Positions 41,940-60,527 of a stretch of DNA of 61,549 bases are shown in pieces; the stretch's first letter is position 1; each line of letters begins with the position of its first letter. The translations under genes were made by a program, and so were the position numbers. A model generated the notes under the pieces. The model was not told the origin of the DNA. It saw only the letters and a program-made list of their open reading frames with translations, and ran no database searches. Source of the stretch: an uncultured Saprospiraceae bacterium. GTDB lineage: Bacteria; Bacteroidota; Bacteroidia; Chitinophagales; Saprospiraceae. The stretch is from positions 1 through 61,549 of the forward strand of contig CALHAM010000048.1 of the NCBI GenBank assembly GCA_937934275.1, read 5' to 3'.

Positions 41940-41949
41940 TAAAAAAACT

Positions 41950-42708
41950 ATGGAAAAATACGTCCTTCAAATCGAACAGCTCCACCTGTATGCCGGCTCA
42001 AAGCACATCCTCAAGGGCATTTCGATGAACATACCCGAACATCAGATAGTGGCTTTGGTGGGCCCCTCCGGCTGCGGCAAAACGATGTTGCTGCGCAGCA
42101 TCAACCGCATGCACGACTTAAACCCTGACATCCGTATCGAAGGGCGAATCTTGTTCAAAGGCAAAAATGTTCTGGACCGCCACACTGACCCAGTACAGCT
42201 ACGCCGCCAGATCGGCATGGTTTTTCAAAAACCCAATCCGTTTCCCAAATCCATTTTTAAAAACGTCGAATACGGCTTGAAAATTAACGGCATGCGCCAT
42301 TCGGCGCACATACGCGACGCTGTAGAAAACAGCCTTAAACAAAGCCACTTGTGGGACGAAGTCAAAGAGGAATTAGACAAATCAGCCCTTGAACTTTCCG
42401 GCGGTCAGCAGCAGCGCCTGTGCCTGGCCCGAGCTATTGCCGTAGCACCCGAGGTCATTTTGCTCGATGAGCCTTGCTCCGCATTAGACCCCATCAGCAC
42501 GGCTAAAGTAGAGGAAACACTGTTGGAACTCAAGCAACTGTTCACCATCGTCATCGTAACTCACAATCTCCAGCAGGCCCGACGCATTGCTGACCAAACA
42601 GCCTTCATGTATTTGGGCGAGCTCGTCGAGTACGGCCCAACGGTGCAAATGTTCGAGCAGCCCCAGCAAGAACTGACGTACAACTATCTGCACGGACATT
42701 TCGGATGA
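41950..42708 (+). CDS. pstB: Phosphate ABC transporter ATP-binding protein PstB
   Basis: ATPase of 252 residues. Walker A GPSGCGKTMLLRSINRMHDL, Q-loop MVFQKPNPFPKSIFKN, signature LSGGQQQRLCLARAI, Walker B VILLDEPCSALDP and the switch His in IVIVTHNLQQA. NPFPKSI is characteristic of PstB. No phoU follows, unlike many pst operons; instead a short signal-peptide-bearing frame begins in an ATGA overlap. Confidence 0.96.
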   Translation: MEKYVLQIEQLHLYAGSKHILKGISMNIPEHQIVALVGPSGCGKTMLLRSINRMHDLNPDIRIEGRILFKGKNVLDRHTDPVQLRRQIGMVFQKPNPFPKSIFKNVEYGLKINGMRHSAHIRDAVENSLKQSHLWDEVKEELDKSALELSGGQQQRLCLARAIAVAPEVILLDEPCSALDPISTAKVEETLLELKQLFTIVIVTHNLQQARRIADQTAFMYLGELVEYGPTVQMFEQPQQELTYNYLHGHFG

Positions 42709-42881
42709 CAGCCACAAGACCCCTTAGGCGATGCTTGGGCGGGCTTGCTTTTCTAACGGTGTGTGCAGGTTGGGCTGGGGGTCAGCCCAGCGGTTTTTCA
42801 TGCACCGCAGTGTCAATACCCTGGATTTTGGCGCATTCGCCCTTCTGTCAGGTCTATTTCGCTTTGAGGGATGGGCAGTAG
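42705..42881 (+). pseudogene. Possible truncated exported-protein gene after pstB
   Basis: An ATG overlapping the pstB stop (ATGA) opens a 58-codon frame. Its start reads as a signal peptide: basic MTATRPLRR, hydrophobic CLGGLAFLTVCAGW, then AGG|QPSGF with Gln after the likely cleavage site, as in the other exported proteins here. After about 36 codons it runs antisense into the 3' end of the susD gene and stops. It may be the remnant of an exported protein, such as a phosphate porin, cut off when the sugar locus was joined here. Chance is not excluded. Confidence 0.4.
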
Positions 42882-44306
42882 CTCGTGTTTGCCCGGCACG
42901 AAGAATTGTTTGCCCAGGGCTTGCATGACGGAAGCGGCGCGTCCCCAGCGCAACAGGTCAAACCACCGATGTTGTTCCATGGCCAATTCGGCGCGCCGCT
43001 CGCGGTAGATGCGCTCGCGCAGTTGGGCCTGGTCGGTGGTTGTTACATCGGGTAGGATGAAGTTGTTGGTGCCGCGGGCGCGTTTTCGAACCTGATTGAG
43101 GTACTGCAGGGCCTGGCTGGCTTTGCCGTTTTCGTTGAGGGCTTCGGCTGCCAACAGCAAGATGTCGGCATATCGGAGGATGCGGATGTTGCCGGGTCCG
43201 TTGTCCTGCAGCCCAGGGTGGGCGGGCACCCAGGCCTTCTGGTTGTAGCGCTCGTTAATGATCTCCGGGTTGTCTTGCACGATGGTGGAGCCGTCGGGCA
43301 GCACTTCGCCCACGTAAATGACCGTGGCCTCGCGGCGTGGGTCGCCTGGCTCATACGACGCCACCAAGTTATCGGACGGCCGATTGAAGCCCCAGCCTAA
43401 ATTAGGCACACCGCGCACCCCCTGAATCATGTTGTAAGGCGAGGCCCCCGGACCTGCTATGGGCGCAGGCAATGCGACACAGCCAATCTCGAAGACCGAC
43501 TCGGCGCCATTTTCGCCTACGGGCAGGAAGTTGTCCGAATACCGCGGCAATAGGCTGTATTGACCTGAGTTGATGACCTCTAAGGCGTACTGCTCGGCCT
43601 TGGCGAAGTCTTTCTTTACCATGTACAGCTTGGTCAACAACCCGCGAGCGGCGCCTTTGGTGGCGCGCCCTAAATCCGCTGCTGCATATTGCGACTTTTC
43701 GGGCAGTACCTCGAGGGCTTCTAACAAGTCGCGCTCAATTTGGTCGTAGATGACTGCTTTGGGCTGTCGCTCTTGTGCGTAGTACTCATCGCCCGTTAGA
43801 GGGCGAGTGATGAGTGGTAAGTCGCCAAACCATTGCACCAACAACAGGTAAGCGTAAGCGCGCAGGAATTTGCACTCGCCGACTAAGCGGGCGCGCAAGG
43901 CGGCATCCATGTCGATGTTCGGAATTTCGCTAATGGCGATATTAGCCCGCGCCACTACGCGGAAATAGCCTCGCCACACTGAGGCGAAAGCGATGTTGGT
44001 GGCATCGAAAGTGAAGCTATCCAGCTCCAGCATGTAGGGCGCATCATTGGGCGTAGAGCCTTTGTCGGCATCGTCGCTGATGATATCGGTGCAACCTAAG
44101 TAGGGCAAGCCCACGCAGTCCCAGCTGCGAAACTGATTGTAGACGGCATTGGTGGCCTGAATGGCCTGTTCGGCATTTTGGAAAAAATTTTCGTACGTCA
44201 GCTGCCCTAAGGGTTTCCGGTCTAGAAAATCTTTTTGGCAGCTCAAGACGGCTAAGGTGCTAAGCAAAAGAAGAGAGGGTATGAAGGAGCGAGCGAGGCG
44301 ATTCAT
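42813..44306 (-). CDS. susD: SusD/RagB-family nutrient-binding lipoprotein
   Basis: Surface glycan-binding partner of SusC, 497 residues. Lipoprotein signal ending at Cys23 (AVLSC) followed by QKDFLDRKPLGQLTYENFFQ, the classic SusD opening. The TPR-containing helical core includes LVGECKFLRAYAYLLLVQWFGDLPLI. The C-terminal ending RMRQNPGY is also typical, so the gene is complete. The ATG at 44306 is chosen over 44357, which overlaps susC. It is the last gene of the locus, 47 bp after susC. Confidence 0.95.
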   Translation of the reverse strand: MNRLARSFIPSLLLLSTLAVLSCQKDFLDRKPLGQLTYENFFQNAEQAIQATNAVYNQFRSWDCVGLPYLGCTDIISDDADKGSTPNDAPYMLELDSFTFDATNIAFASVWRGYFRVVARANIAISEIPNIDMDAALRARLVGECKFLRAYAYLLLVQWFGDLPLITRPLTGDEYYAQERQPKAVIYDQIERDLLEALEVLPEKSQYAAADLGRATKGAARGLLTKLYMVKKDFAKAEQYALEVINSGQYSLLPRYSDNFLPVGENGAESVFEIGCVALPAPIAGPGASPYNMIQGVRGVPNLGWGFNRPSDNLVASYEPGDPRREATVIYVGEVLPDGSTIVQDNPEIINERYNQKAWVPAHPGLQDNGPGNIRILRYADILLLAAEALNENGKASQALQYLNQVRKRARGTNNFILPDVTTTDQAQLRERIYRERRAELAMEQHRWFDLLRWGRAASVMQALGKQFFVPGKHELLPIPQSEIDLTEGRMRQNPGY

Positions 44307-44353
44307 AGCGCAAAAAGTGTTTGGAGGTGAGGTGCTGAGGAGAGTTGAGAACA

Positions 44354-47323
44354 TCAAAAAGTTACATCCACTCCGAAAGATACGGTTTTGGCAATGGGAT
44401 ACGAGCCGTAGTCCACGCCGGCGCTGAAGACGCTGCTGCCCGGGAACTCGGGCGAATAGCCGTCATAGGCTTGGCGCGTCCAAAGGTTGGTGCCGTTGAG
44501 GTAGAAGCGGGCGCGCTGAATGCCGACGCGCTTGGTGAGCGACGGCGGGAGGGTATAGCCCAATACGATGCTGCGCAAGCGGAAAAACGAGCCGTCCTGG
44601 ACGTAGAAGCTCGACATGCGGTAGTTGTGCCCGCCGTTCGTAACGCGAGGCACGCTGTTGCTGGTGCCCTCACCGGTCCAGCGGCCCTCGTAGTAGCGCT
44701 GGTGCCAGTTGTACACGCCAAAGCGAGCCATTTGCCAAGCACTGACGACCTTGTTGCCCTGTACTCCGAAGAAGTCGGCTGCGAAGTCGAGGCCAGCCCA
44801 TTCAAAGCCGGCCGAGAAGCCGTAAGTGAGCCGAGGTATTGGGCTTCCGAGAAACACCTTGTCGGCATCGGTGATTTTGCCGTCGCCGTTGATGTCCTCA
44901 TAGCGAAAGTCGCCCGGTTTTTCGTTGCCCAGCCGCGGATATCGGTTCAGATCGTCGGCATTTTGAAAAATACCGGCCACCTGAAAGCCGTAGAACTCGC
45001 CGATGGAGCGGCCTACGATGGTGCGCGTGGCGAAGTCTCCTTGTGCGGTTCCTGCAGCGCGCACTTCCGATTTGCGGGCGTCGAGTTCTACCACTTCGTT
45101 ACGCACGGTAGAGAAAATGGCCCCCAGGTTGTACGATACCTTGCCGCGCGTGTCGCGCCAGCTGAGGGTAACGTCCCAGCCGCGGTTGCGCACGTCGGCT
45201 ACATTGACCACCGGATTGCCCGCCGAGCCAACGTAATCTGGAATGGGCAATTCGTACAGGATGTCGTAGGTCAGCCGATGGTACCAGTCCACTTCAGCGC
45301 TCAGGCGTCCATTGAGAAGGGCCATTTCGAGGCCGACATCCGTTTGCGAGGTTTCTTCCCAACGCACGTCGGGGTTCGACAGCGTGGTTAGGGTTGCTCC
45401 TGTATTGAGGGCCTCATTAGGTCCAAAGATGGCGTATAAGTTGCCTTGGATGACGCCAAAAGAGGGGTACAGCTGTGTCTTGTCGTTGCCGACAACTCCC
45501 CAAGAAGCGCGCAATTTGAGGCGGTCGAAGAGGCGTTGATTAGCCATGAAGGCCTCCTGAGCAATGTTCCAGCCCACGGCAAATGACGGGAAGTAGCCCC
45601 AGCGGTTTTTGGGCGAAAACCGCGAGGAGCCATCGGCCCGGAAGGAGGCCGTTAGCAAATAGCGCTCAAAAAGCGTCAGGTTTATCCGACCCAAATAACT
45701 GACCATGGCCCACTCCCCGGCTCCTCCGTAGTTGAGTTGCGTGGTGTCGTTGCCGGCCGAGAGGTAGAGCAGTTCGTCAATGCCTGCTGGGAAGTTGCTG
45801 CGGCTAGCGCCAAAATATTCGAAGCGCGTTTCCTGAGCGGTGTAACCCGCCAGCGCATTCAGGCGCAAGTGTTTCCATTCGCGGTTAAAGGTCAGGGTAT
45901 TTTCCCACAACCACGAGCGGTTTTCGTTGAAGCCTAGCTCCAACCGGTCGTTGGCATTGCGCTGCGACACCGATACTTCGAACACCGGCTCGTAGTATCG
46001 GCTGCGCGCTATGCCGTAGTCTAAGCCGAAATTAGAGCGAAAGGTGAAGTATTCCCCCAATTTGAGGTCGCCGTAAAGTGTGCCCACCAAGCGATTGTTT
46101 CGCGAAAAATTGCGGCTTTTGTAGAACAAATCAGCAGCCGGGTTACCGATGGCGGTGCCGAAAAAGGTGGGGTCTGAAAATCGGCCGGTAGAGTCTCGTT
46201 CGGCGTAGATGGGCGGCATCCAGAGCGTCGAGAGGAGTACTCCAGGAGCATTTTGGCTATTGGCCGAAGCAAAAGAGACGTTGTGGCCCAGTTGAACGGT
46301 TCGGTTCACGCGATACTCGTTGTTGAGCCGCAGCGTAACGCGCTCGAACTCCGACTGGCGCACAATACCCGACTGGTTGAAGTAGTTGCCAGCGATGTTG
46401 TAGGTGAATTTATCGGAGCCTCCTGCGGCGCTCAATTGTACGCTTGCGATGGGGGCTTGCCGATAAGTGACGTCTTGCCAATTGGTACCCGCACCCAGCG
46501 CCTCAGGGTCGGGAAAGAACGGCTGGCCCCGCAGTTCGTTGTACATCTGAGCAAATTGGGCGGCATTGGCCATAGGTATTTTTCGGGTGAGTGCTTGTGT
46601 GCCATAGTAACTGTTCAGGGCAATGGCTGCGCGCTCGCCAGCTTTGCCGCGCTTAGTCGTGATGATGATGACCCCATTGGCTCCGCGGTTGCCGTAGATG
46701 GCCGTAGCGGAAGCGTCTTTGAGCACCTCAATAGACTCGACATCTTGCGGGTTAACAAAGGAAGCGTCTTCCAACAGCATGCCGTCCACCACATAGAGCG
46801 GGTTAGCGTTGTTCAGGGTGCCCGTGCCTCGTATTCGAACGACTGCTCCCGCCCCTGGTTGCCCACTGGCCGGCACCACATAGACGCCGGCGATCTTTCC
46901 CTGAAGTGCTTGGTCAACCGATGCCGTAGGAATGCGCTCAATTTCGCGCGTCTTCACGGTGCCGACGGCACCCGTCAGGTCGCTCTTGCGCTGGGAGCCG
47001 TAGCCAACTACGACAATTTCGCCGATGACCTCACTTTGCGGCACCAGCGCCACATCGAGCGAGGTGCGCCCTTGTAGGGCCACTTGTTGTTCTACGTAGC
47101 CGGTGTACGTGAAAATGAGCGTCGCGTTGAGATCGGGAACTTCCAGGGCATAACGCCCCTCTGCGTCGCTGATGGTACCCATAGGGGCGCCTTGTACGGC
47201 GATGGTTACGCCAATGAGGGCTTCGCCGGTTTCAGCATCGCTAACGCGGCCCACTACGCGCAGTTGGGCCGTTGCTGCCGTGTGGGCGAGCAGGCCAAGC
47301 AAAAGAATGGGAAAGAGTTTCAT
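44354..47323 (-). CDS. susC: SusC/RagA-family TonB-dependent transporter
   Basis: Outer-membrane TonB-dependent transporter of 989 residues. Signal peptide (ATA|QLRVVG), a carboxypeptidase-D regulatory-like domain (about 22-100: VVGRVSDAETGEALIGVT), then the plug with the SusC-specific EIVVVGYGSQRKSDLTGAV, LQGKIAGVYV and NANPLYVVDGM. A 22-stranded barrel follows and ends FGVDVTF. It imports oligosaccharides with SusD as lid, powered by TonB. Upstream GH3, symporter and glucanase genes indicate a glucan substrate. Confidence 0.96.
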   Translation of the reverse strand: MKLFPILLLGLLAHTAATAQLRVVGRVSDAETGEALIGVTIAVQGAPMGTISDAEGRYALEVPDLNATLIFTYTGYVEQQVALQGRTSLDVALVPQSEVIGEIVVVGYGSQRKSDLTGAVGTVKTREIERIPTASVDQALQGKIAGVYVVPASGQPGAGAVVRIRGTGTLNNANPLYVVDGMLLEDASFVNPQDVESIEVLKDASATAIYGNRGANGVIIITTKRGKAGERAAIALNSYYGTQALTRKIPMANAAQFAQMYNELRGQPFFPDPEALGAGTNWQDVTYRQAPIASVQLSAAGGSDKFTYNIAGNYFNQSGIVRQSEFERVTLRLNNEYRVNRTVQLGHNVSFASANSQNAPGVLLSTLWMPPIYAERDSTGRFSDPTFFGTAIGNPAADLFYKSRNFSRNNRLVGTLYGDLKLGEYFTFRSNFGLDYGIARSRYYEPVFEVSVSQRNANDRLELGFNENRSWLWENTLTFNREWKHLRLNALAGYTAQETRFEYFGASRSNFPAGIDELLYLSAGNDTTQLNYGGAGEWAMVSYLGRINLTLFERYLLTASFRADGSSRFSPKNRWGYFPSFAVGWNIAQEAFMANQRLFDRLKLRASWGVVGNDKTQLYPSFGVIQGNLYAIFGPNEALNTGATLTTLSNPDVRWEETSQTDVGLEMALLNGRLSAEVDWYHRLTYDILYELPIPDYVGSAGNPVVNVADVRNRGWDVTLSWRDTRGKVSYNLGAIFSTVRNEVVELDARKSEVRAAGTAQGDFATRTIVGRSIGEFYGFQVAGIFQNADDLNRYPRLGNEKPGDFRYEDINGDGKITDADKVFLGSPIPRLTYGFSAGFEWAGLDFAADFFGVQGNKVVSAWQMARFGVYNWHQRYYEGRWTGEGTSNSVPRVTNGGHNYRMSSFYVQDGSFFRLRSIVLGYTLPPSLTKRVGIQRARFYLNGTNLWTRQAYDGYSPEFPGSSVFSAGVDYGSYPIAKTVSFGVDVTF

Positions 47324-47444
47324 AGCGTGCTTCTAGTGTATTTTTGGGCCAAATCGGTGCAGACACCTCGGTGCTGTCCCTCTTTTGGTCGTGATGAATG
47401 AGCGGTTAATTTCGCAGGAGTAAAAAGTAGTTTGTGGAGTATAG

Positions 47445-49721
47445 TCATTGAAGTTCGACCCGCACCGGTTGCCCATGGGCCGAGTGGCTACAGATCCAGA
47501 GGTCGAATGCTCCGGGTTCTGAACCGAAGGACATGTCCCGCCGGTAGAAGCGTAGGTCGGTCTCGGTAAGGGTAAAGGTTACGGTGCGACTTTCACCGGG
47601 CTGCAGATGGATGCGCTGAATGCCTTTGAGCTCGCGCACGGGGCGAGTGACACTGCCTACTTGGTCGCGCACGTAGAGTTGGACGACCTCTGTACCGGCG
47701 CGGTCGCCTGTGTTGCGCACTTGAGCGCTGACGCGCAGCGTATCGCCCGCCCGAAAAGTCAAGGCTGAAGTAGTAGGGAGTGAGTACTCGAAAGAAGTGT
47801 AGCTAAGGCCAAAGCCAAAGGGGAACAGCGGGCTATTGGGGGCATCGAGGTATTTACTCGTCCATTTGCTGTTGGGGTCAAAGGGGCGCCCGGTGTTTTT
47901 TTCGTTGTAGAAAATGGGCACTTGCCCTACCGACCGCGGGAAGGTCATAGGTAGTTTGCCGCTGGGGTTGTAGTCGCCGAAGAGCACGTCGGCCAAGGCA
48001 TTGCCGGCTTCTGTACCCAGCCACCAGGCCTCCACGACGGCTGCGGCGCGCTCGACTACGTTCGGAATGGCCAATGGCCGACCGTTCATAAGCACAACTA
48101 CGAGGGGCCTGCCCGTAGCCGCCAGCGCTTCGACAAGGGCCTCTTGCTCTCCCGGCAGCGAAAGCTGCGTACGCGAAGCCGCCTCTCCACTCATGTAAGC
48201 GGCCTCGCCAACGGCTACTACGACAACATCTGCCTTCTTGGCTAGGGCTATTGCTTCGGCGAAACCGCGGCGGTCGTTGCCCTCCAGCTCGCAGCCTTTA
48301 GCGTGCCCGAGCACCCCTCGGCTGGTCGCTCGCAACCCCTCCAGCAAGCTCACGCAGTCGGAACCACTGCCGGCCGCACTCCAACTGCCGATGAGCTCGT
48401 CCTTGTTGTCGGCTAAAGGTCCTATCACCGCAAGGCGCGCTGTGCGCGACAGCGGCAGCACCTGGCCCTCGTTTTTCAGCAAAACGATGGATTTGCGGGC
48501 CATATCGCGAGCAGCAGCGCGATGTTCAGCACTGAGTATGAGGCGTTTTTCGCGCTCTGGATCGCAGAACTTGTACGGATCTTCGAACAGCCCCAACCGG
48601 TATTTCAACTTTAAAATGCGTCGCACAGCAGTGTCGATTTGAGCCATAGAAACCCTGCCGGCCTCTAAAGATGCTTTCAAATACTGCTGAAAAACAGCGC
48701 CCTGCATGTCCATGTCGACGCCAGCGTGTAGGGCCAGTTCGCCCGCCTCTTGCTCGTTGCGGGCGACGCCGTGCGGCACCAGCTCGTTGATGGCCGTGTA
48801 ATCGGTAACCACAAAGCCCGTAAAGCCCAATTCACGGCGCAGCACGTCTGTGAGCAAGTAGCGGTTGCCCGTGGCCGGCACTCCATCGTAATCGTTGAAG
48901 GCTGTCATGACGGTGGCTGCTCCGGCCCGCACTGCGGCCGCATAGGGTGGCAAGTAATACTCGCGGAAAAAGCGCTCGCTCATGTCTACCGTGCCGTATT
49001 CCCGTCCGGCGGTAGGTGCTCCGTAGGCGGCATAGTGTTTCACGCAGGCGGCTACAGCGTCGGTGTGCCCCAAGCCCTTGCCCTGAAAGCCTCGCACACG
49101 AGCCTCGGCGACCCGACACGCCCACCACGTGTCTTCACCAGCGCCTTCCATAACGCGGCCCCAGCGTGGGTCGCGAGTGAGATCGACCATAGGGGCAAAC
49201 GTCCAGTGCAACCCAGCCGCCGCTGCTTCGGTGGCAGCAACGCGGGCCGAGCGCTCGATGGCCTCCAGATCCCAGCTGGCCGCTTCCGCCAATGGAATGG
49301 GAAAAATGGTCTTGTAGCCGTGAATAACGTCGTAGCCAAACAGCAGCGGAATCTTCAGACGCGACTCCTCTACGGCCAAGCGCTGCAATTCGCGCGTAAA
49401 AGCAGCCGTGTGGCTGTTGAACAGCGCTCCGCAGCGCCCCTGGCGAATGTCTTCGCGGTAGCCTTCCCGAATCGTTGGCCCGGTGGCTTCCCAATCAGTG
49501 GTGAACAGCGTCATCTGGCCAATCTTTTCCTCTACTGTCATGAGCGTCAGCAGCGAGTCCACCAGACGATCTTCTGACGACGATAAAGGTACTGAGCTGC
49601 CCTGGAAGGAAAAGAAAAGGGCTATTCCCGCAAAAATAGCGGCAGCCATGCTTCCCAGCATTTTAAGCTGCGCGCCACTTCGGGACTGAAACGGCAAACG
49701 AGCGAGGAAAGAGGTAAGCAT
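47445..49721 (-). CDS. bglX: GH3 beta-glucosidase (BglX-like)
   Basis: Periplasmic exo-glucosidase of 758 residues releasing glucose from beta-gluco-oligosaccharides. The N-terminal hydrophobic segment (about 24-40) is a signal or anchor. The GH3 barrel holds LLFGYDVIHGYKTIFPIPLA, DPRWGRVMEGAGED, CVKHYAAYG and the nucleophile Asp near 307 in GFVVTDYTAINEL. The second domain has SIVLLKNEGQVLPL and the GEAAYMSGEAASR acid/base loop; a fibronectin-III-like C-terminal domain follows. Codon 21 (ATG 49661) is an alternative start. Some Bacteroidota GH3 enzymes of this type are beta-1,2-glucosidases, but specificity cannot be read here. Confidence 0.94.
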   Translation of the reverse strand: MLTSFLARLPFQSRSGAQLKMLGSMAAAIFAGIALFFSFQGSSVPLSSSEDRLVDSLLTLMTVEEKIGQMTLFTTDWEATGPTIREGYREDIRQGRCGALFNSHTAAFTRELQRLAVEESRLKIPLLFGYDVIHGYKTIFPIPLAEAASWDLEAIERSARVAATEAAAAGLHWTFAPMVDLTRDPRWGRVMEGAGEDTWWACRVAEARVRGFQGKGLGHTDAVAACVKHYAAYGAPTAGREYGTVDMSERFFREYYLPPYAAAVRAGAATVMTAFNDYDGVPATGNRYLLTDVLRRELGFTGFVVTDYTAINELVPHGVARNEQEAGELALHAGVDMDMQGAVFQQYLKASLEAGRVSMAQIDTAVRRILKLKYRLGLFEDPYKFCDPEREKRLILSAEHRAAARDMARKSIVLLKNEGQVLPLSRTARLAVIGPLADNKDELIGSWSAAGSGSDCVSLLEGLRATSRGVLGHAKGCELEGNDRRGFAEAIALAKKADVVVVAVGEAAYMSGEAASRTQLSLPGEQEALVEALAATGRPLVVVLMNGRPLAIPNVVERAAAVVEAWWLGTEAGNALADVLFGDYNPSGKLPMTFPRSVGQVPIFYNEKNTGRPFDPNSKWTSKYLDAPNSPLFPFGFGLSYTSFEYSLPTTSALTFRAGDTLRVSAQVRNTGDRAGTEVVQLYVRDQVGSVTRPVRELKGIQRIHLQPGESRTVTFTLTETDLRFYRRDMSFGSEPGAFDLWICSHSAHGQPVRVELQ

Positions 49722-49743
49722 AGTTTCGAAAAAGCGAAGTCGT

Positions 49744-51360
49744 TTAACCCGTGAACGTAAACATGATCCAGGCCACAATGCCCACTACAAGCGCCGAAGC
49801 CAGGATATCCCAAAGGTCGTAACTGGCCTTTAGCTCGGCGCGATGCTCTTCGGAAAGGGTAGCGTAGGTTAGGCCGTGCACCTGCTCTTCGGACTGAGGA
49901 GGTGTGAGTAGGCTGACCACTACGCACACGACGATGCAAAAGAGAAAAAACCAACTGGCAAACGTCAAGAAGTTAAGATCACCGAAAGCATACAAAAGCC
50001 CCTGAGGGTTGAGCGCTGGCCGGCTAATCTCCAGCACAAGGCGCACTACCGCTACCAACAGGCCCACCATGAGCGTAGCCATGGCGCCTTTGGCGTTGAT
50101 GCGACGGGAGAAGATGCCCAGTAAAAACACGGCCGTGATGGGCGGAGCAATGTAGGCTTGTACCGACTGCAAGTACTCGTACAGCACGCCGGAAATGTTT
50201 TGCATGATGGGTATCCAGGCAATGCCCAACAACACGACGACAGCAGTAGCTAGGCGACCCACGCGCACCAACTGAGTCTCCGGAGCGTCGGGGCGTATCT
50301 TTTTATAGACGTCCACGGTGAAGAGCGTCGAGCAAGAATTGAACACCGAGGCCAGCGAGCTCATTAGCGCCGCAAGGAGGCCCGCAGCCACCAGCCCGCG
50401 TAGGCCGTGAGGCATCAGCTGCGCCATGAGCGCAGCAAAAGCCTGGTCAGGCCTATCCCACATCAACTCGCCTCGGTTTTTTAGGGCTAAAGCGACGACG
50501 CCCGGCAGCAAGAAGAGGAATACGGGCATGAGTTTGAGCAACGCACCAAAGATAGTGCCGCGTCGGCCCTGCTGCAGGTTGCGCGCAGCCAATGCGCGCT
50601 GTACAATATATTGGTCGGTGCACCAATACCAAATGCCGGAGATGGTACTCGCCATGAGAAGCGACGGCCACGGAAACTCTGGGTCGTCGGGTGGGCGCCA
50701 CATGTTGAGGTACCCGGGGGCCAAGGCTTCGCGCATGCCCGACCATCCGCCTACGGCTTGAAAGCCAAAAAAGGTCAGTGCCCCAGCGCCGAGGATCAAG
50801 ATCACCGTCTGCAGGGCCTCAGTGTACACTACAGCCCGAAGGCCGCCCAAGGCGGTGTAAAGGCCAGTGAGGACCACGGTGATGAAAGCCCCTAACCAAA
50901 AGTCAATGGCCAACAGCGTAGAAATGACGATGCCGCCCGCATAGATGGTTACCGATACTTTCGTGAGCACATAGGCCAGCAGGGAGAACAGCGTCAGGAA
51001 CCAGCGCGCTTGAGGGCTGAAGCGGCGCTCTAGAAACTCGGGCATGGTAAAGACGCGGCTGCGCAAGTAGAAGGGCAAGAACACCCACCCCAGCAGCAAG
51101 ACGATCCAAGCGTGCAATTCGTAAATGAGCATCGGAATTTTGCCGCCTGCGCCTGCACCCGCCAGTCCGACGACGTGCTCCGAGCCAATGTTCGAAGCAA
51201 AGATGGAAGCCCCCACGACAAACCAGCCAATGTTTCGACCCGCCAAAAAATAGTCGGTGCTGTCGCGTTGTCGCTGCCGAATGACCCACACGGCCAGTAG
51301 GAGAAGTATTAAAAAGTAGCCGCCGATAACAGCCCAGTCAAGAAGGTTGAAGTGTTGCAT
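49744..51360 (-). CDS. Sodium/sugar symporter (SSS family, SGLT-like)
   Basis: Inner-membrane solute:sodium symporter of 538 residues with about 14 helices. The order DYFLAGRNIGWFVVGASIFASNIGSEHVVG is the SGLT signature. It is followed by LGGLRAVVYTEALQT and WYWCTDQYIVQRALAA, the latter matching vSGLT-type sugar carriers. It would bring glucose or short oligosaccharides from the periplasm into the cytoplasm. The ATG at 51360 is chosen over 51423, which overlaps the preceding gene. It is 22 bp before the GH3 gene and 63 bp after the glucanase-esterase gene. Confidence 0.93.
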   Translation of the reverse strand: MQHFNLLDWAVIGGYFLILLLLAVWVIRQRQRDSTDYFLAGRNIGWFVVGASIFASNIGSEHVVGLAGAGAGGKIPMLIYELHAWIVLLLGWVFLPFYLRSRVFTMPEFLERRFSPQARWFLTLFSLLAYVLTKVSVTIYAGGIVISTLLAIDFWLGAFITVVLTGLYTALGGLRAVVYTEALQTVILILGAGALTFFGFQAVGGWSGMREALAPGYLNMWRPPDDPEFPWPSLLMASTISGIWYWCTDQYIVQRALAARNLQQGRRGTIFGALLKLMPVFLFLLPGVVALALKNRGELMWDRPDQAFAALMAQLMPHGLRGLVAAGLLAALMSSLASVFNSCSTLFTVDVYKKIRPDAPETQLVRVGRLATAVVVLLGIAWIPIMQNISGVLYEYLQSVQAYIAPPITAVFLLGIFSRRINAKGAMATLMVGLLVAVVRLVLEISRPALNPQGLLYAFGDLNFLTFASWFFLFCIVVCVVVSLLTPPQSEEQVHGLTYATLSEEHRAELKASYDLWDILASALVVGIVAWIMFTFTG

Positions 51361-51423
51361 AAACAGTCGCTTTGAGCAGTGAGAAGGTGTTTCGCCGTTG
51401 CTTTTTGCGGATAGGTGTTCCAA

Positions 51424-53664
51424 TTATTCTCGGCGGTTTCGGCCGTGCTTTTTCGCAGAGGATGAAGGCGTTTTTCGCTGGGCAAAAAGCCACGCCATAA
51501 GCGACGGATTATAATACGTCTGATGCCAGATGGCGTGGGCTAAAGTCTCATATTCGGTGTATCGGACGGGCTGGCCGTGTTTGCGCAAGGCTTCGGCTAT
51601 GTGGCGCGAGCGCGAAGGCGGCACCACCTCGTCTTGCCGACCGTGAAAAATCCAGACAGGTACGTTTCGGATGCGATGCGCTTGGGCGGGGTCGCCGCCG
51701 CCGCATAAGGGCACTGCTGCCGCGAACCACTCTGGCCGACGCATGAGCAAGTCGAATACGCCAGCGCCTCCCATAGAGAGGCCTGTCAAATAGAGGCGCG
51801 AGGGGTCAATGTCTGGCTCGTCGCGCAGCAGTTGCTCGATGAGGGTCATCAGCAGGCGCATGGGTTCGGTGGGAGTTTCGCTCCAGGTAACAGCCGTGCG
51901 TATGTCGGCACCCGACCAGCGCGCATCGGGTGGGCATTGGGGCGCGAGCACGTAGCAGGGGTAACGTCGCTGGTGCGCTGTTTCGGCAAACGCCAGCACG
52001 CCGTTGAGCAGTTGGCGCTCATTGTCGTAGCCGCGCTCGCCTACGCCGTGAAGAAAAACGACGAGTGGCAGGCGCACGCGTTGACCTTGGGCATCCACCA
52101 AATGCCCTTGAGCGTTTCGGCGCAGGCCGTAGTTGGCCGTTGCTGGTAGCCCGTTGACGGGGCGCAGCAGCCGATAGGGTAGGGCACTGGTCTTGTCTTC
52201 TCGGAAAATGCGCCTTTCAAAGAGCCATTTCGGCTCTGCCGATATTTCTGGGTTGGGTTTGACCGGTTTCTCCGGCGGCAGCGGTGCCTCGCGGAAAGCG
52301 TCTAACCATCCTCCGCTAAAGCCTGCGCGCCTAAGGCCGGTGCGGAGGTAGGGATTTTTTTTCATCACATTCCACAACAGATTGCTGCGGTAGTTTTCCA
52401 GCATGAGCAAGATAGGCCCTTGGTCAATCCCTAAATAGTCTTCGGCAAACCAGCCCTCGGGCAGGCGCCCATCGGCGGTGAAAGTCAGGTTAAAAGCATC
52501 CTTAAAGCCGTATGGTCCCACCAGGCTATCGTAGTAGGTTTCCCACATGGCCTGTAGGGCGGGCAGGCAAACTTCGGGAGCAAAAGGCACAGAGCCTCCC
52601 GCAGCCGTAGGCGCTATGGTTCCGTCGTCTTCCAAATAGTCGCTGGCAACCCCTCGAGCGTGATAGGCGTGAAAAGACTTCCATGTGTCGGGGCGGCACA
52701 GGCCCTGACCGTAGCGCTGGACCCACTCCATAGGGCCGTCGCAAGCCGTTAGTCCCCACGTGTTTTCTGAATAGCCTTTGAACTGCTGCGGATTTCGGAG
52801 GCAATAGGCGCGGTTGGCCAAAGTGGCCCGGCGGCTGTTTTCAAAGTAGTCCATTCCCTTTTGGCGCATGTACCGGTCTTGGATGCCGCGAAAGTCTACC
52901 CAAACGTGGCTGTACTGATGACCGAAGAGCGGGCCGAAGTTGACATGGGGCTGGCCTTCGAAGTCATCCCAGTAGTAATTGAGCGTCCAGGCATCCCAGC
53001 TGGAGGCGGGAATAGGATGGGTTGGCGAGCCGAGGGCCAACACATAGAGAATCATGGCTTCCGTGTATCCAAACCACTCGGCGCGGAGGAAGCCTTTTTC
53101 GGGGCGCCAGCCCATGCTAAGGCGGTGATTAGGCCCCAGCATCCAGTCCCACTCTACCCGGCGGTAGAGCGTGTCCGCCAGTTGGCGAATGGCCTCTTCT
53201 ACGCTGTCGTCGCCGTCAAAATAGCTCATGCACGACAGCACCCCGGCCATGAGCAGTCCGCTATCTATGGACGACAGCTCTACATCCCGGTGGCGCCGCC
53301 CGCGCTCGTGGTCAAGAAAATGGTAGAAAAAACCGCGATAGCCAGCCATTCCCTCCACTTCTGGGCCTTGGGGCAGCGTTAGAAGCGTTTCTAAAGTATG
53401 CCTCACGCGCTGAGCAGCCTCTGGACGGCTAACCCAACCGCGCTCAATGCCGACGATGTAGGCGCTCAAGCCAAAGCCCGTAGCGGCAATGCTGGAAAAC
53501 GCCTTCGTCGGCCAACGGTCGGGTATCTGACCCAGCGCATCTGCCCGCTCCCAAAAATAAAGAAAAGTACGCCGCTGAAGTTCCTCTACGCTAAATGGAA
53601 CGCGCTCCTGAGCGGCCATTGCGCTGGCCATCCAGCACCACAGGTATGTGAGAAACACCCGCAT
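51424..53664 (-). CDS. PF10091 (GH144-like) glucanase fused to a serine esterase
   Basis: A 746-residue two-domain exported enzyme. Signal peptide MAA|QERVPF, then an alpha/alpha-barrel glycoamylase-like domain (about 20-455: [91 protein letters not shown]). A linker leads to an alpha/beta-hydrolase (about 490-735) with oxyanion VVFLHGVGERG, nucleophile Ser near 629 in LTGLSMGGAG, Asp near 676 in IFHGRQDEVV and His near 710 in TLAHAIWH. It has no T9SS sorting domain, so is probably periplasmic. Joined activities suggest hydrolysis of an ester-substituted glucan. The ATG at 53664 is chosen for its signal peptide. Confidence 0.9.
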   Translation of the reverse strand: MRVFLTYLWCWMASAMAAQERVPFSVEELQRRTFLYFWERADALGQIPDRWPTKAFSSIAATGFGLSAYIVGIERGWVSRPEAAQRVRHTLETLLTLPQGPEVEGMAGYRGFFYHFLDHERGRRHRDVELSSIDSGLLMAGVLSCMSYFDGDDSVEEAIRQLADTLYRRVEWDWMLGPNHRLSMGWRPEKGFLRAEWFGYTEAMILYVLALGSPTHPIPASSWDAWTLNYYWDDFEGQPHVNFGPLFGHQYSHVWVDFRGIQDRYMRQKGMDYFENSRRATLANRAYCLRNPQQFKGYSENTWGLTACDGPMEWVQRYGQGLCRPDTWKSFHAYHARGVASDYLEDDGTIAPTAAGGSVPFAPEVCLPALQAMWETYYDSLVGPYGFKDAFNLTFTADGRLPEGWFAEDYLGIDQGPILLMLENYRSNLLWNVMKKNPYLRTGLRRAGFSGGWLDAFREAPLPPEKPVKPNPEISAEPKWLFERRIFREDKTSALPYRLLRPVNGLPATANYGLRRNAQGHLVDAQGQRVRLPLVVFLHGVGERGYDNERQLLNGVLAFAETAHQRRYPCYVLAPQCPPDARWSGADIRTAVTWSETPTEPMRLLMTLIEQLLRDEPDIDPSRLYLTGLSMGGAGVFDLLMRRPEWFAAAVPLCGGGDPAQAHRIRNVPVWIFHGRQDEVVPPSRSRHIAEALRKHGQPVRYTEYETLAHAIWHQTYYNPSLMAWLFAQRKTPSSSAKKHGRNRRE

Positions 53665-53756
53665 AATACCGACAAATTTGACTGACGCAAAGAGAGGCTG
53701 CCCCCGCCCAAACATCACCAGCGGCGGGCAGCACTCTAGAGGAAGCGGTTGATGCG

Positions 53757-56700
53757 TCAGTTTTTGATGAATTTTGCGATACCCACGGGCAAGCCCTGAG
53801 CATCGAAAGCCGTCAATAGGTAAACACCCGCTGGAAATTGCGATACATCAACGTCCGTGCGCACGTCGCCACCGGTGTTTACTTCTGCCAAATGCCGCCC
53901 TATGAGGTCCGTAACGGATACGCGGGTTACTTGCTCCAAGTTCTCCACCCGAAGCCATTGCTCAGTGGGGTTGGGAAATACTCGCAGGCTCGCCAGCGGG
54001 AGCGGCTGCCACACCGACACGCTGGTGCAGGCGCCGTTGCCGATGACGAGGTCGTCAAAGTAAGACGTTACGTTTTGTCCTGTGGCGTTGATGCCCAAGT
54101 CGAAGAAGATAGTCAGTCGCTTAAATTCCGAATTGTCGGGCACAGCCGAAAAGTCGAACGTCAGCTCTTCCCAGGCGTTCAGCTGAGTATTGGCTACGGG
54201 GATTTCGAGGAAGAAGCCGTTAACGGCGTCGCCCTCGACTTTGACGGCAAAGTTGCCAATGTGGTCCATGTGCACTTTGGCGCGCACTTGTTTGACGCCT
54301 TTCCAATCAATGGGCGCTTCTAAGTCAGCATACATGCCGGCGAAGGGCAGCGCGTCGCCTGCCTTAACGAATTTGCCCACCTTGCTCGACGTATTGATAC
54401 CCGAAGGGTTAGGGTTATCCACTACCTCAAACTGGTAGCCCGCCTGCTCCAGTGAGCCATTAGCGAAATAGCGGAAATTAGTGATGCTCGTTTGAGGCGA
54501 CTCGTAGTCGGCAATGCAGCCGTTGTAGCCGGCGCGCGCCCAGCGGATGTTGTCCAAATAGTAAGTGCCGCCGCCAGTAGGGCTAAGCACGTTGACGAAG
54601 ATGACCAGTTTCCTGTTCTGAGTGCCGACGTATTTGCTGAAGTCAATGTTGAAGCGATACCAGCGGTTTGCTGCCTTGAGGGTATCGAAGATTTCCACAG
54701 GTGTATCCCCGCCCTCGAGTTTGAAGAGGAAGGGCACGTTGTTGAACGGCGACCAGACCTGCACTTGCAGTTGGTTGTACACCGACAGGTCGGGCGGAGC
54801 GGCGAATTCGTAACCGATGCCGGCAAATTCGGTTCCCGGCCCCGCGGGGTCTCGGTATTCGCCTACTTTGAGCGAGCCGTTTTCAGGGGCCAAATGCGGG
54901 TTGTTGACGACACTCACATCACTGGCGCCATAGAAGATCTGAACAAAGTTGCGCTGGCATTCAAAGTCATCAATGATGTTGGGAATAGGCACTGTACCTG
55001 CGCACGGGTCTACGGTGGCTTTGGATTGGCGCAGGTTGTCGATGCACCAGCTTTCGCCCGGGGCGGCCGTGCCAGCGTTGAAAATAAAGCGCACTTCGTT
55101 GAAGTCCTTAATGTTGTCGAAGGCGGAGAAATCGAAGTTGAGCGTTTCCCATTGCCCGGGAGTAGTAATAGTGGCTTCGGCGGACTTGTTGCCTTGGGTA
55201 GGGGAGCTGAGTTGCACAATGACTTTGCCGCCGCCAGCAGGGCTGAGCACATCCACATTGAACTGCGGGAACACCGAAAGGTCGAAAGGCGTCAGCGAGA
55301 AGGCTTGCAGAGTAGAGAACGGCGACGAGCCTTTAGCGTAGCAGCCGACGTTGGGTGAGTCGTTCACGCTGTTCGGACTCGGGTTAGGCGTCGGGCCGTT
55401 GAAGGTCCCGTGCAAGGCGGTATTTTGGTCGAGCGGTTGCCAGCCTAAGCTGATGCCGCCTTCAAAGTCCTCAATGACTACATCAGTAGGTGCCGACAAC
55501 TTAACGTTGTCGAAGTAGTATACGTCGCCCGGCTCTCCGTTGACGCCCGCGTTGAAGAACAGCACCCAGCGCCTATGACCTTTGCCGGCCTGGTCGCTGA
55601 AGTCCACTTTAGCCGTCGTCCACTGGTTGGGCACCATGGGCACGAACACTTCTTTAGGCGGGTTTGGGCCGCCTTCCAGTTTGATGAGAAGGTTGCCCGC
55701 CTTGGGCGACCACACCTGTACAGAGAATTGGTTGCGTTGCGATAGGTCTATGGGCGTTGGATAGGCTATTACCAAGGCCGCCCATTCGGTACCCGGGCCG
55801 GCGGGGTCGTTCCAGCGACCGACTTTGGGCGAATTGTTGTCGCCGGTAGGGTAAGGGTTTTTCACGACGGAGAGGCTATCCCATCCCAACGCGTAGGCAG
55901 CATTGCGGTTGCACTCAAAGTCATCAATAACGTCAGGGTCGAGGGTAATGCCTTTGCAGGTGTTAGGATAGGCGCATAGATTATCGAAATAGTACGTCCT
56001 GTCGTCGCCCGTGTTGCCCGGGTTGAAAACGATGAGGATTTTGGTGATGGTGTTATAGCTTTCAGCACCCGACATGTCGAAGGTCAGGCGTTGCCACGCG
56101 TTGGCTACGGGTACGTACTTTACCTTTTCCAGTGCTTGCCCTGTGCCTTCTAACTTAAACAAGACGCTGGTAGGCTGCGGCACCCACACGTCGAGGGCAA
56201 ATTGGTTGTACACCGACAGGTCAATAGGGCCAGTGCCTACGGTGCCGAAGGCAAAATTGTAGTCGAAATTAGGATTATTGGTAAAACTGCCCACCGTAGC
56301 TGTACTGTTCACCTGATTGGGAGCAGGGTTGGCGATGGCGCCATTGAAAGTGCCGTTCAGCCCTGTCCAAGTAATGTCGGAGCTGCCTTCGAACGTTTCA
56401 TAGCAGCGCTCGGCGCGCACAGCCACGATGTCGTCGAAATAGTAGGTTTTGTCGTCGCCCAGTACGAAGGAGTTGAACGACACCAACAGCGTTTTCAGGT
56501 GTGTGTACGAGGCGCCTGCCGACAGGTCGAAGGTGTACTCTACCCATTGGTTGGCCACGGTAATGTCCACGAATTTTTCCACAGGTGGCCCTCCTGGGCC
56601 TTCCAGCTTGAGCAATGCCTTGGAGGGCGCCGTGGGCGACCAGATTTTCATCTTGAACTGGTTGAACTCGCTGATGTCTACCGGTGTAGCAAAGGTGTGC

Positions 56701-56930
56701 AAGGCAAAGCAGAAGTCGAAACCAGGGTTGTTGGTGTAAGAGCCTACAAAGTCGCTCGTATTGATGCCTGATTTGTCGGGGTTGGCGATAGCACCGTTGA
56801 AAGTGCCGTTGAGGCCTATCCAGCTAAGCGTAGGGGTGCCGCTCTCAAAGTCTTCATAGACGACTACTTGAGCGTTTGCTGTCGGCCAAAGGAAGAGAGC
56901 AAACAGTGCAATGAGCAAAAGAGGTTTCAT
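53757..56930 (-). CDS. T9SS-exported protein with six carbohydrate-binding-like repeats
   Basis: A 1057-residue surface protein with no catalytic domain I recognise. Signal peptide ANA|QVVVYE. Six jelly-roll-like repeats of about 150 residues follow, at roughly 25-172, 176-320, 334-479, 485-640, 650-800 and 810-965. Each runs (Y/D)xFE near the start, VGxxxN or VGxxxDPAG, IDLSxYNQFxxxVWSP, LLKLEG, NQWxxxxFDxS and YYFDN at the end, like family 4/16-type binding modules. The last 80 residues are a T9SS sorting domain (RVFPNPTEQWLRV, PAGVYLLTAFDAQG). It lies between two glucanase genes, so it probably holds the glucan at the cell surface. Confidence 0.85.
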   Translation of the reverse strand: MKPLLLIALFALFLWPTANAQVVVYEDFESGTPTLSWIGLNGTFNGAIANPDKSGINTSDFVGSYTNNPGFDFCFALHTFATPVDISEFNQFKMKIWSPTAPSKALLKLEGPGGPPVEKFVDITVANQWVEYTFDLSAGASYTHLKTLLVSFNSFVLGDDKTYYFDDIVAVRAERCYETFEGSSDITWTGLNGTFNGAIANPAPNQVNSTATVGSFTNNPNFDYNFAFGTVGTGPIDLSVYNQFALDVWVPQPTSVLFKLEGTGQALEKVKYVPVANAWQRLTFDMSGAESYNTITKILIVFNPGNTGDDRTYYFDNLCAYPNTCKGITLDPDVIDDFECNRNAAYALGWDSLSVVKNPYPTGDNNSPKVGRWNDPAGPGTEWAALVIAYPTPIDLSQRNQFSVQVWSPKAGNLLIKLEGGPNPPKEVFVPMVPNQWTTAKVDFSDQAGKGHRRWVLFFNAGVNGEPGDVYYFDNVKLSAPTDVVIEDFEGGISLGWQPLDQNTALHGTFNGPTPNPSPNSVNDSPNVGCYAKGSSPFSTLQAFSLTPFDLSVFPQFNVDVLSPAGGGKVIVQLSSPTQGNKSAEATITTPGQWETLNFDFSAFDNIKDFNEVRFIFNAGTAAPGESWCIDNLRQSKATVDPCAGTVPIPNIIDDFECQRNFVQIFYGASDVSVVNNPHLAPENGSLKVGEYRDPAGPGTEFAGIGYEFAAPPDLSVYNQLQVQVWSPFNNVPFLFKLEGGDTPVEIFDTLKAANRWYRFNIDFSKYVGTQNRKLVIFVNVLSPTGGGTYYLDNIRWARAGYNGCIADYESPQTSITNFRYFANGSLEQAGYQFEVVDNPNPSGINTSSKVGKFVKAGDALPFAGMYADLEAPIDWKGVKQVRAKVHMDHIGNFAVKVEGDAVNGFFLEIPVANTQLNAWEELTFDFSAVPDNSEFKRLTIFFDLGINATGQNVTSYFDDLVIGNGACTSVSVWQPLPLASLRVFPNPTEQWLRVENLEQVTRVSVTDLIGRHLAEVNTGGDVRTDVDVSQFPAGVYLLTAFDAQGLPVGIAKFIKN
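54036..56858 (-). repeat. Six-fold tandem protein-domain repeat
   Basis: Internal repeats of about 440-480 bp encoding the six binding-like modules. Repeats 1 and 2 share nearly the same GLNGTFNGAIANP block (also visible as similar DNA near 56330-56360 and 56790-56820). Repeats 3 and 5 share DPAGPGTE, so duplication seems to have occurred in stages. Confidence 0.75.
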
Positions 56931-57004
56931 ACGAGACTGTTTTTAGTGAAAGGAATAAGGATGCGATTGTTCTTGTACAAATGAGTCTTTTTGAGCCAGG
57001 TAGT

Positions 57005-58873
57005 TTAATCGTCCGTTATCCAAAAATACCGAACAATAGGATGGGCATCAGGTATTTGTAGGCGCATCAGATACCAGCCTTTAGGCCAGTGAGTTGAAGA
57101 AAACGGAAAAAGATTTTCGCCGGCATTTAGCCAGCCTTCCTGTCGAGCAATAGCAGGGCTTTTGCCCAACACATTCAGCACCTCTATTTGATAGGGCAAT
57201 GCCTTAGGTGCAGTTATTTTCACCCAGAAAAAACCTTTGCCCACTGGGTTGGGAAATAGCGCACATTCTATCGCTTCCGTCGGTAGCGTTGGCGCCGATA
57301 CCGAAGAGTCGGGTTGAAAGCCGCACGCCAATAGTGCTGGCTCGATTTCCGGGTTTTGCATAAACAATCGCCACAATAAGCCGGTGCGGTAGTTTTCAAT
57401 CATGGCTACGATTGGGCCTTGGTCAATGGCTAAATAGCTGTTGGCAAACCAGTTTTGCGTCAGATTAAAAGCGTCGTAGAAGCCGCAAATGCCCCATAGT
57501 CGCTCGCCCAAATGGCGGTAGAAGTACCGCAAAGCGGCCATGCTTTGTTCTGGCGTGTAGGGCATGGAGGCCAAAGCAGCCGTTGGGGCTATGGTGCCTT
57601 GGTCATTGGCGATATCGAAGGCAAAGTAGCCGTTGGGGGCGTCGCAAGCGGTGAGGCCCCAGCATTCAGCGCTATATCCGAGGAATTTTTTCGGGTTCAG
57701 TTTGGCGTATTCCCACTGGATGAGGGCGTGATGCCGATTTCGGATGAAATAGTTGCAACAGGCATCTCGCCAGCCGCGCGGGTCGAAGCCCAAGTAAGAG
57801 TAGTGGGCGAAGAACATCGGGCCGCCGCCGTTTAGGCCCGTGTAGATAGGGTAGCCAAAATAAACGGCTGGTGTACAATAATTGGGAGAGACCGCCCACC
57901 CGCTTTGGTAAAGGCTGCCGGGCACCGGATGCGTGGGCGAAGCAGCAGCCAACAGATAGACGAGCTGGGTTTCGTTGAAGCCCCGTAGGGGGAAGTTCAT
58001 CTGCCAACCGTAATTGGGCGACCAGTGCCAGTACAGCACAGGGCTGTTGTTGCGCCGAAACCACGACCACTCCACGCCGTGCCACAAGCTGGTGATGGCG
58101 GCGCGCAGGCCCGCTTCTTGCGGGTCGTTGTGGTCGAAGTATTGGCGCGCTGCCAATAAGCCTTGCATCAGAAAAGCCGTTTCTACCAAGTCGGCCCCGT
58201 CGTCATAAGCGCTGAAGGGCAGGGCCTTACCCGTAGTGCCGTTAATCCAATGAGAAAAAGCTCCGTGAAATCGGTCGGCAAATTGAAGGAAGGAGACGAT
58301 CTGGATAAGGCGGTCGAGCGCTTGCTGGCGCGTGATCCAGCCGCGCTCAGCGCCGACGAGAACAGCCAAAATACCAAAGCCCGTGCCGCCTGTAGTAACG
58401 GTGAACACACTGCTGATGCGCTCGCGAGCCATGCCGCTGACGGGGTGGGCAAAGTCCCAAAAATAGCGAAAAGTGTAGCGCTGCACCATGTCGAGCAATT
58501 CCTCGTCGGTCATGGGTGCAGTTTGGGCGCAGGCCGTTTGAGAAAAGTCGCTGATGGCCAAGCCATTGTTGCGCACGCTGCGTATGCGGTAGCAGCGCGT
58601 CAGGTAGTCGCCTTCGTCGCCCGTCCAATCTACAATAACTGTGGGCGCAGGACCTACCGTGCGCAGGTGTTCGAACGTATGACCGCCATCCATCGAGCGA
58701 AAGACCTGATAACCTGTAATCTGGGCGTCGTTGACCGGCTGCCACCGTACTTCTACGTGTTTTTCGTAGCCATCGGCCCCCACGTAAGTAGGAGGATCAG
58801 GGACTTGCCCCCTCAGGAAAATAGGGCAAAGCCCTACGAACAGTACAATTTTGGCAGTAGTAATCTGGCGCAT
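57005..58873 (-). CDS. T9SS-exported PF10091 (GH144-like) endo-glucanase with FnIII-like domain
   Basis: A 622-residue secreted enzyme. Signal peptide (LRG|QVPDPP at about 23/24), an FnIII-like domain (about 28-115: [21 protein letters not shown]), then the PF10091 alpha/alpha-barrel (about 125-530: [102 protein letters not shown]). A T9SS sorting domain ends it ([28 protein letters not shown]). Characterised relatives in GH144 are endo-beta-1,2-glucanases. The ATG at 58873 is chosen because a -7 box lies at 58938-58945, downstream of the longer start at 59014. It is the first gene of the locus. Confidence 0.9.
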
Positions 58874-60505: not shown

Positions 60506-60527
60506 CTCTGATGTTAGCAAAGGCCTG

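Follow-up and report, generated by a model that had tools for sequence, protein, structure and literature searches.

A Saprospiraceae polysaccharide utilization locus with a GH144-esterase fusion and a putative six-module exported binding protein, predicted to act on beta-1,2-glucan

Locus organization and conservation

We analyzed a 61,549-base contig (CALHAM010000048.1, hereafter the window), part of the 3.43 Mb draft genome of an uncultured Saprospiraceae bacterium. The window carries a seven-gene locus, entirely on the minus strand and with short gaps or none, that runs from 58873 down to 42813 and encodes, in this order, two glycoside hydrolase (GH) family 144 enzymes flanking a repeat protein (E1, R6 and E2), a symporter, a GH3 enzyme, SusC and SusD. 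Beta-1,2-glucans have been known chiefly as substances that bacteria make in connection with osmoregulation, symbiosis and infection; to our knowledge, their natural consumers, and the chemical form that is eaten, are poorly known. The seven genes are as follows, with T9SS standing for type IX secretion system.

57005..58873, minus strand: E1, predicted exported GH144 beta-1,2-glucanase of 622 aa (by reading, a signal peptide; then an FN3-like module, the GH144 barrel and a weak T9SS type A tail)
53757..56930, minus strand: R6, putative beta-glucan-binding protein (1057 aa; signal peptide by reading, six modules, T9SS type A tail)
51424..53718, minus strand: E2, fusion of GH144 (XcSGL type) and an alpha/beta-hydrolase esterase (signal peptide by reading; predicted soluble periplasmic)
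49744..51423, minus strand: SSS-family symporter (nearest solved chains, Sodium/glucose cotransporter 1 and 2)
47445..49778, minus strand: GH3 beta-glucosidase, BglX type (ATG start near 49721 or 49661 by reading)
44354..47323, minus strand: SusC-type TonB-dependent outer-membrane transporter (TIGR04056, 882.9 bits)
42813..44357, minus strand: SusD-type protein (PF07980, 116 bits; lipoprotein signal by reading; ATG at 44306 the likelier start)

Pfam and NCBIfam called PF10091 in E1, Por_Secre_tail in R6, PF10091 plus an alpha/beta hydrolase in E2, and the SSF symporter, GH3, SusC and SusD families in the other four proteins. Genes, strand and families were thus as given in a preliminary description of 42813-58873, which had been made from the sequence alone. 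The adjacent SusC and SusD genes, with degradative enzymes alongside, make this a SusCD-type polysaccharide utilization locus (PUL).

Searching with E2 (E up to 1e-30) found matches in 68 of 149 genomes, the own genome included, some of the matches being of the E1 type or to the esterase only. Through E2 matches, and therefore not at random, loci were fetched from 46 relatives, two of them (L091 and L092; L and G numbers are our labels for loci and genomes) only via an E1-type domain; several were cut by contig ends. The order E1-R6-E2 was kept in 30 of the 46, SusC and SusD were present in 24, and both features were found in 19, which indicates that these genes do not stand together by chance. 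L083, L085 and L086 were rearranged, the latter two lacking R6; R6 was split over two open reading frames (ORFs) in L052 and L066, and no SusCD was found within the stretch fetched for L053, L054 and L060.

Assignment of E1 and E2 to GH144

The domains of the two PF10091 proteins are located as follows.

58538..58795, minus strand: FN3-like module of E1, aligning with BDI_3064 (5z06) from chain residue 192
57314..58516, minus strand: GH144 catalytic domain of E1, with clan residues aligned to CpSGL
57053..57259, minus strand: C-terminal T9SS type A sorting-like tail of E1, below the curated cut-off in the window copy
52273..53598, minus strand: GH144 domain of E2, with D152, E220, F265, Y352 and D432 invariant in 28 aligned E2 sequences
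51475..52074, minus strand: esterase domain of E2, nearest solved structure 3doh (Foldseek), Ser-Asp-His triad present

E1 showed 52.0% identity to CpSGL and 46.2% to the aligned part of BDI_3064, with bit scores of 466 to CpSGL, 510 to 4gl3 and only 20 to the GH189 domain 8wy1. E2 was 54.4% identical to XcSGL (513 bits) and 33.8% identical to CpSGL (175 bits), and reached only 28 bits to PgSGL3 (GH194). Both were therefore nearer to GH144 than to the other SGL-clan families by bit score, on which this distance rests, the tree described next being free of GH162, GH189 and GH192-194 sequences. In that tree, which covered 84 GH144-type domains, 18 E2-like rows and XcSGL were separated from 62 E1-like rows by one branch (support 100); E2 grouped with XcSGL in the resulting 19-row set, and E1 fell among the E1-like rows, outside a 24-row set containing CpSGL. 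Membership of E2 in GH192-194 was rejected on its low score to PgSGL3 and because its nearest structure, XcSGL, is called GH144 (PMC12102758; here and below, statements on published work refer to the available portions of the cited texts).

Catalytic roles of SGL-clan residues were taken from the same paper, and its CpSGL numbering was mapped on the printed chain, where all positions checked held the expected residue. E231, E301, F354 and Y416 of E1 align with CpSGL E142, E211, F268 and Y330, respectively, and these residues (acid E301, base candidate E231) were invariant across 25 aligned E1 sequences. D152, E220 and F265 of E2 match the positions of CpSGL E142, E211 and F268, while Y352 occupies that of XcSGL Y367; the last was taken from the search alignment to XcSGL, as the alignment that gave the other three positions misplaces this Tyr. 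The solved XcSGL chain has Gln at the acid position, and its incomplete entry title ("E23") reads as an E239Q mutant.

XcSGL (XCC2207; PDB 8XUL), a GH144 endo-beta-1,2-glucanase, is accordingly the closest characterized relative of E2, with catalytic positions kept. XcSGL and CpSGL are both characterized beta-1,2-glucanases (PMC12102758), and XcSGL is inactive on laminarin, barley beta-glucan, CM-cellulose and pustulan (PMC12102758, section 2.3). The preliminary description had named placement of both PF10091 domains outside GH144 as grounds for refuting its reading; by identity and tree, both lie inside it. Its term "GH144-like" for the fused enzyme was too cautious, as E2 is GH144, and its beta-1,2 reading of the linkage is supported, at the level of sequence, by the closeness of E1 to CpSGL and of E2 to XcSGL with clan residues intact.

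Relative to CpSGL (5GZH/5GZK) and BDI_3064, E1 shares the GH144 domain and the FN3-like stretch of BDI_3064, in which Pfam finds no fn3 match; it differs in having a T9SS-like tail and in missing the first ~190 chain residues of BDI_3064. We take BDI_3064 (5Z06) to be an exo-acting enzyme. Because E1 is without this N-terminal part, it probably acts endolytically. An exo-acting, sophorose-releasing type was rejected for E1, since it is without the ~190 N-terminal residues common to L080 and BDI_3064, an argument that we infer from this comparison rather than prove. Two E1 orthologues, L080:16596-19121 (842 aa) and L084:12458-14935 (826 aa), are longer, the L080 protein aligning with nearly all of BDI_3064, and forms with and without the BDI_3064-type N-terminal part alternate at the same operon position. 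The start of E1 is the ATG at 58873, the TTG at 59014 being a mechanical ORF start.

For E2, the ATG at 53664 is the more likely start by reading, and a public metagenome-assembled contig, CALJPQ010000001.1, is 100% identical over the gene. Pfam and NCBIfam found no T9SS tail in E2. Among the 28 E2 sequences checked for a lipobox pattern, none of the 21 fused ones matched (L064 came near), and five of the seven unfused ones did (L079, L080, L082, L083 and L089). This distribution suggests that the fusion accompanied a switch from a lipoprotein to a soluble protein, which would most simply be periplasmic.

An esterase domain fused to GH144 and linked with it

The most distinctive part of the locus is the fused esterase. 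The C-terminus of E2 was confidently modeled as an esterase domain, with both the fold and the catalytic triad in place. Across 59 aligned rows the triad was kept almost throughout (S in 57, D in 58 and H in 58), the window copy having all three residues. The fusion was present in 34 of the 42 searched genomes of the genus, the own genome included, and also in a genome of another genus (G054). As for the remaining genomes of the genus, E2 was unfused in G036 and G017 and fragmentary in G026, G009 had an E1-type match only, and four had no match. Ten other fetched loci had an E2 ORF of 458-502 aa without the esterase.

A single sample of 395 Bacteroidia genomes was searched for PF10091 and for the esterase domain. 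With PF10091 matches below 90 bits and the own genome excluded, 51 genomes carried GH144; 12 genomes had only such weak matches, many in very long ORFs. The esterase search returned 86 matches in 73 genomes. In 25 of the 51 GH144 genomes, one esterase match each (25 in total) lay within 10 kb of GH144, always on the same strand, and 18 lay within 2 kb; these genomes with a GH144-adjacent, stand-alone esterase span six families. By our own arithmetic, chance placement of the 47 esterase matches in GH144 genomes would yield well under one. A tree of 41 esterase rows (17 fused, 13 GH144-adjacent and 11 from elsewhere) united the fused rows in one clade (support 98), and the adjacent rows required two changes.

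Recurrence of the association across families, together with the fusion, strongly hints that esterase and GH144 attack one and the same polymer, and the stand-alone relatives near GH144 suggest an O-acylated glucan as that substrate. Succinyl and/or acetyl groups are often found on cyclic beta-1,2-glucans (PMC11842490). The glucanase-esterase fusion and its stand-alone counterparts in many Bacteroidia would point to acylated glucan as the real substrate, an idea that E2 makes testable with one protein. Neither a GH144-esterase fusion nor an esterase shown to act on beta-1,2-glucan was found in listings of open-licence papers in PubMed Central.

Neighboring genes were examined at 42 loci, of which 32 had GH144 and 10 were retrieved because of an esterase elsewhere; neighbors were clustered by BLAST, and one member per cluster (two for LamG) was scanned with Pfam. 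Recurrent clusters at the 32 GH144 loci, all of them small raw counts, were LamG (14), GH43 (12), GDSL hydrolase (8), Exo_endo_phos (4), glycerophosphodiester phosphodiesterase (3) and sulfatase (3). Among the decorations of periplasmic glucans is phosphoglycerol. As GDSL hydrolases, glycerophosphodiesterases, Exo_endo_phos proteins and sulfatases at these loci would fit other decorations, we tentatively raise a wider possibility, which we hold to be somewhat doubtful: the esterase may represent a carbohydrate-esterase group specialized for O-acylated (succinylated, acetylated or similar) beta-1,2-glucans and recruited repeatedly to GH144 loci, which as a class may eat decorated periplasmic or cyclic glucans of other bacteria.

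The GDSL cluster occurred at L092, L105, L110, L112, L123, L129, L130 and L137, the glycerophosphodiesterase cluster at L132, L135 and L142, the Exo_endo_phos cluster at L104, L128, L140 and L141, and the sulfatase cluster at L103, L104 and L126. PF10091 was also seen in ORFs of ~2700-2920 aa in nine sampled Bacteroidia genomes (G207, G230, G255, G288, G327, G339, G350, G422 and G427), a size that is presumably that of cyclic beta-1,2-glucan synthases.

The six-module protein R6 and type IX secretion

R6 consists of six repeats and a sorting domain.

56412..56867, minus strand: module 1 (AlphaFold2 pLDDT 98, all-beta; nearest solved structure 8qx6)
55941..56411, minus strand: module 2 (repeat analysis)
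55488..55940, minus strand: module 3 (repeat analysis)
54987..55487, minus strand: module 4 (repeat analysis)
54528..54986, minus strand: module 5 (repeat analysis)
54030..54527, minus strand: module 6 (repeat analysis)
53808..53981, minus strand: T9SS type A sorting domain (PF18962, 28.7 bits, cut-off 27; TIGR04183, 29.2 bits, cut-off 23)

The repeats are 151-167 aa long; compared with module 1, the other five show 29-48% identity. A profile of 59 R6-type modules found PDB 8qx6 (E 2e-21), and Foldseek with the module 1 model also placed 8qx6 at the top, with a TM of 0.78 on the query and a structural alignment at 21% identity. Pfam matches to the 59 modules were weak (CBM_4_9 in 10 and SGBP_B_XBD in 7), with none to module 1 of the window. 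R6 thus resembles the carbohydrate-binding module (CBM) X584 in sequence and in modeled fold, and ligand binding is predicted; as far as this likeness goes, R6 differs in placing six such modules in one T9SS protein within a GH144 locus. A laminarin-type binding module would here be deployed next to beta-1,2-glucanases, in a T9SS-exported protein with six modules.

With its tail above both cut-offs and the secretion machinery encoded in the same genome (SprA, 2331 bits; PorU sortase, 1182 bits; PorV, 414 bits), R6 qualifies as type A cargo. The T9SS tail model matched 24 of the 25 E1 sequences, including that of the window, at E values of 5 or lower, the best being 2.8e-9. Export by the T9SS, as put forward in the preliminary description, is supported by the tails and by this machinery; of the two T9SS domains it had named, the one on the binder is clear and the one on E1 falls below the cut-off in the window copy. 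Its remark that T9SS cargo is less usual for SusCD loci does not hold for this family, and the pairing of T9SS with SusCD as something unusual for Saprospiraceae was rejected, since both PULs and T9SS are reported in a study covering five genera of the family (PMC9304909).

GH3 and the symporter

The GH3 protein scored 858 bits against NF011678 (BglX; cut-off 666). It scored 714 bits to 5xxl, which we take to be BT_3567, and 587 to Lin1840, yet 787 to 3u48. The GH3 enzyme is not diagnostic of the linkage, and its sequence does not reveal a preference for sophorose. The symporter scored 373 bits to Sodium/glucose cotransporter 1 (7sl8) and 248 and 227 bits to 2xq2 and 3dh4, respectively (sodium/glucose cotransporters), so it belongs by sequence to the SGLT type, with its transported sugar predicted. 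In other families, three GH144 loci (L104, L129 and L130) had weaker SSS-family matches within or next to them.

Proposed function and alternative explanations

We consider it probable that the locus is a PUL for the catabolism of beta-1,2-glucan, with decorated (O-acylated) glucans from other bacteria as the likeliest form. R6, exported by the T9SS, would hold the glucan at the cell surface through its six jelly-roll modules, while E1, exported by the same route, would cut it endolytically into oligosaccharides outside the cell. SusCD would move these through the outer membrane. In the periplasm, the GH144 domain of E2 may cut them further and its esterase domain may strip acyl groups that would otherwise block the glucanase or the glucosidase, GH3 would free glucose, and the symporter would bring the glucose into the cytoplasm. 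The analysis establishes which genes are present, their families and catalytic residues, the T9SS tails and machinery, the conserved gene order and the linkage of esterase to GH144 in genomes; the substrate, where each protein acts, the sequence of steps, deacylation and the endo mode of E1 are predictions from these. PF10091 had two matches in the own genome, both at this locus (E1 and E2), and hence no cyclic glucan synthase was seen. The locus is therefore more in keeping with consuming the glucan than with making it, and its role as a maker of cyclic glucan was rejected on this basis.

Several observations weigh against the proposed function. The E1 tail of the window copy scored 18.4 bits (E 0.0016), short of the cut-off of 23, and the symporter occurred, besides the window, in only three of the 46 relatives' loci (L047-L049) and is a lineage-specific addition. 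No esterase of the kind described lay within 10 kb of GH144 in 26 of the 51 GH144 genomes, and the best-scoring esterase relatives were not near GH144. The placement of these relatives and the breadth of the esterase family would suit a chance fusion, in which the domain has no glycan role and hydrolyzes unrelated esters, as would the best esterase tree, where fused and GH144-adjacent rows do not form one clade (a single clade was not rejected, AU p 0.075). We regard that explanation as improbable given the retention of the fusion in 34 of the 42 searched genomes of the genus, the conserved triad and the same-strand placement of stand-alone relatives beside GH144 in 25 genomes of six families.

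The remaining counter-evidence concerns the linkage. The nearest solved relative of R6 is a laminarin (beta-1,3-glucan) binder by its entry title, "Novel laminarin-binding CBM X584", which is the source of the ligand named here. R6-like sequences (E up to 1e-15) occurred in 26 of the 395 genomes, the own included, and lay near GH144 in five (the own genome, G047, G459, G509 and G526; compared by eye). Of six R6-like proteins away from GH144, four (L154, L155, L157 and L158) came directly after SusCD with GH16 beside or one gene on, which argues against R6 alone as beta-1,2-specific; the other two (L153 and L156) had no SusC or SusD match beside them, one neighbor (at L153) having been scanned with Pfam. 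These modules thus seem to form a family of general surface binders of beta-glucan, in this locus placed between two GH144 genes. GH3 enzymes associated with beta-1,2-glucan, moreover, cleave sophorose and laminaribiose alike (PMC12369401). All of this would accord with a mixed diet in which E1 and E2 cut beta-1,2-glucan, R6 and GH3 serve mainly a laminarin-like beta-1,3-glucan, and several beta-glucans are taken up. We judge this unlikely, because R6 stands between two GH144 genes in 30 of the 46 loci, and because Pfam finds no GH16, GH17, GH64 or other beta-1,3-glucanase in the seven window proteins, the rest of the genome not having been searched for these. A heteroglycan containing beta-1,2-glucosyl links (e.g., with galactose), on which the esterase would also act, could likewise stand in place of the homopolymer: one GH144 PUL, from Bacteroides xylanisolvens, includes a beta-1,2-galactosidase gene as well (PMC11739564), and 12 of the 32 sampled GH144 loci have the cluster whose scanned member is GH43. 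However, the glycosidases among the seven window proteins are GH144 and GH3 only, with no galactosidase, GH43 or GH35 by Pfam, and we find this explanation very unlikely.

Comparison with known systems

GH144 PULs for beta-1,2-glucan are named among the abundant PULs of Bacteroidota (PMC6499787, Lapebie et al. 2019), and the window locus has both the type and the predicted substrate in common with them; marine versions add a sulfatase, whereas in the window the second GH144 carries a fused esterase. In the sampled GH144 loci, a LamG protein (cluster u0) follows SusD in 14 of 32, the window locus having the T9SS six-module binder instead. The C-terminal extra region of XcSGL is annotated as disordered (PMC12102758), while E2 has its esterase domain there.

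Ignavibacterium album is alike in its two GH144 genes, its TonB-dependent transporter and its proposed outside-then-inside breakdown (PMC8861115), and in a Streptomyces griseus cluster an unclassified gene annotated as acetyl-esterase lies near GH193 (PMC12369401). Unlike the window locus, both clusters use ABC transporters at the inner membrane, and the available portions of the two papers mention neither a fusion nor a T9SS binder (PMC8861115, PMC12369401). GH144 PULs and T9SS with PULs in Saprospiraceae are therefore already known (PMC6499787, PMC9304909), and, as far as listings of the open-licence literature show, three features are new: the fusion of GH144 with an esterase, the widespread linkage of this kind of esterase to GH144, and the conserved six-module T9SS binder that lies between GH144 enzymes of two types.

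Other features of the window

The upstream neighbor of the locus (59087-60520) encodes a pyridoxal phosphate (PLP)-dependent decarboxylase and is unrelated. Downstream, the ORFs at 39203-42708 on the plus strand are convergent with the locus and by reading alone form a phosphate-transport set; a very acidic 106-aa ORF (38935-39255) lies beside these presumed transport genes. A subtilase of 1367 aa (27126-31229) has a PKD domain and a T9SS-like tail that, at 22.1 bits, is below the cut-off of 27, and a 615-aa protein (5647-7494) has a clear T9SS tail (45.9 bits) and is otherwise without a Pfam match.

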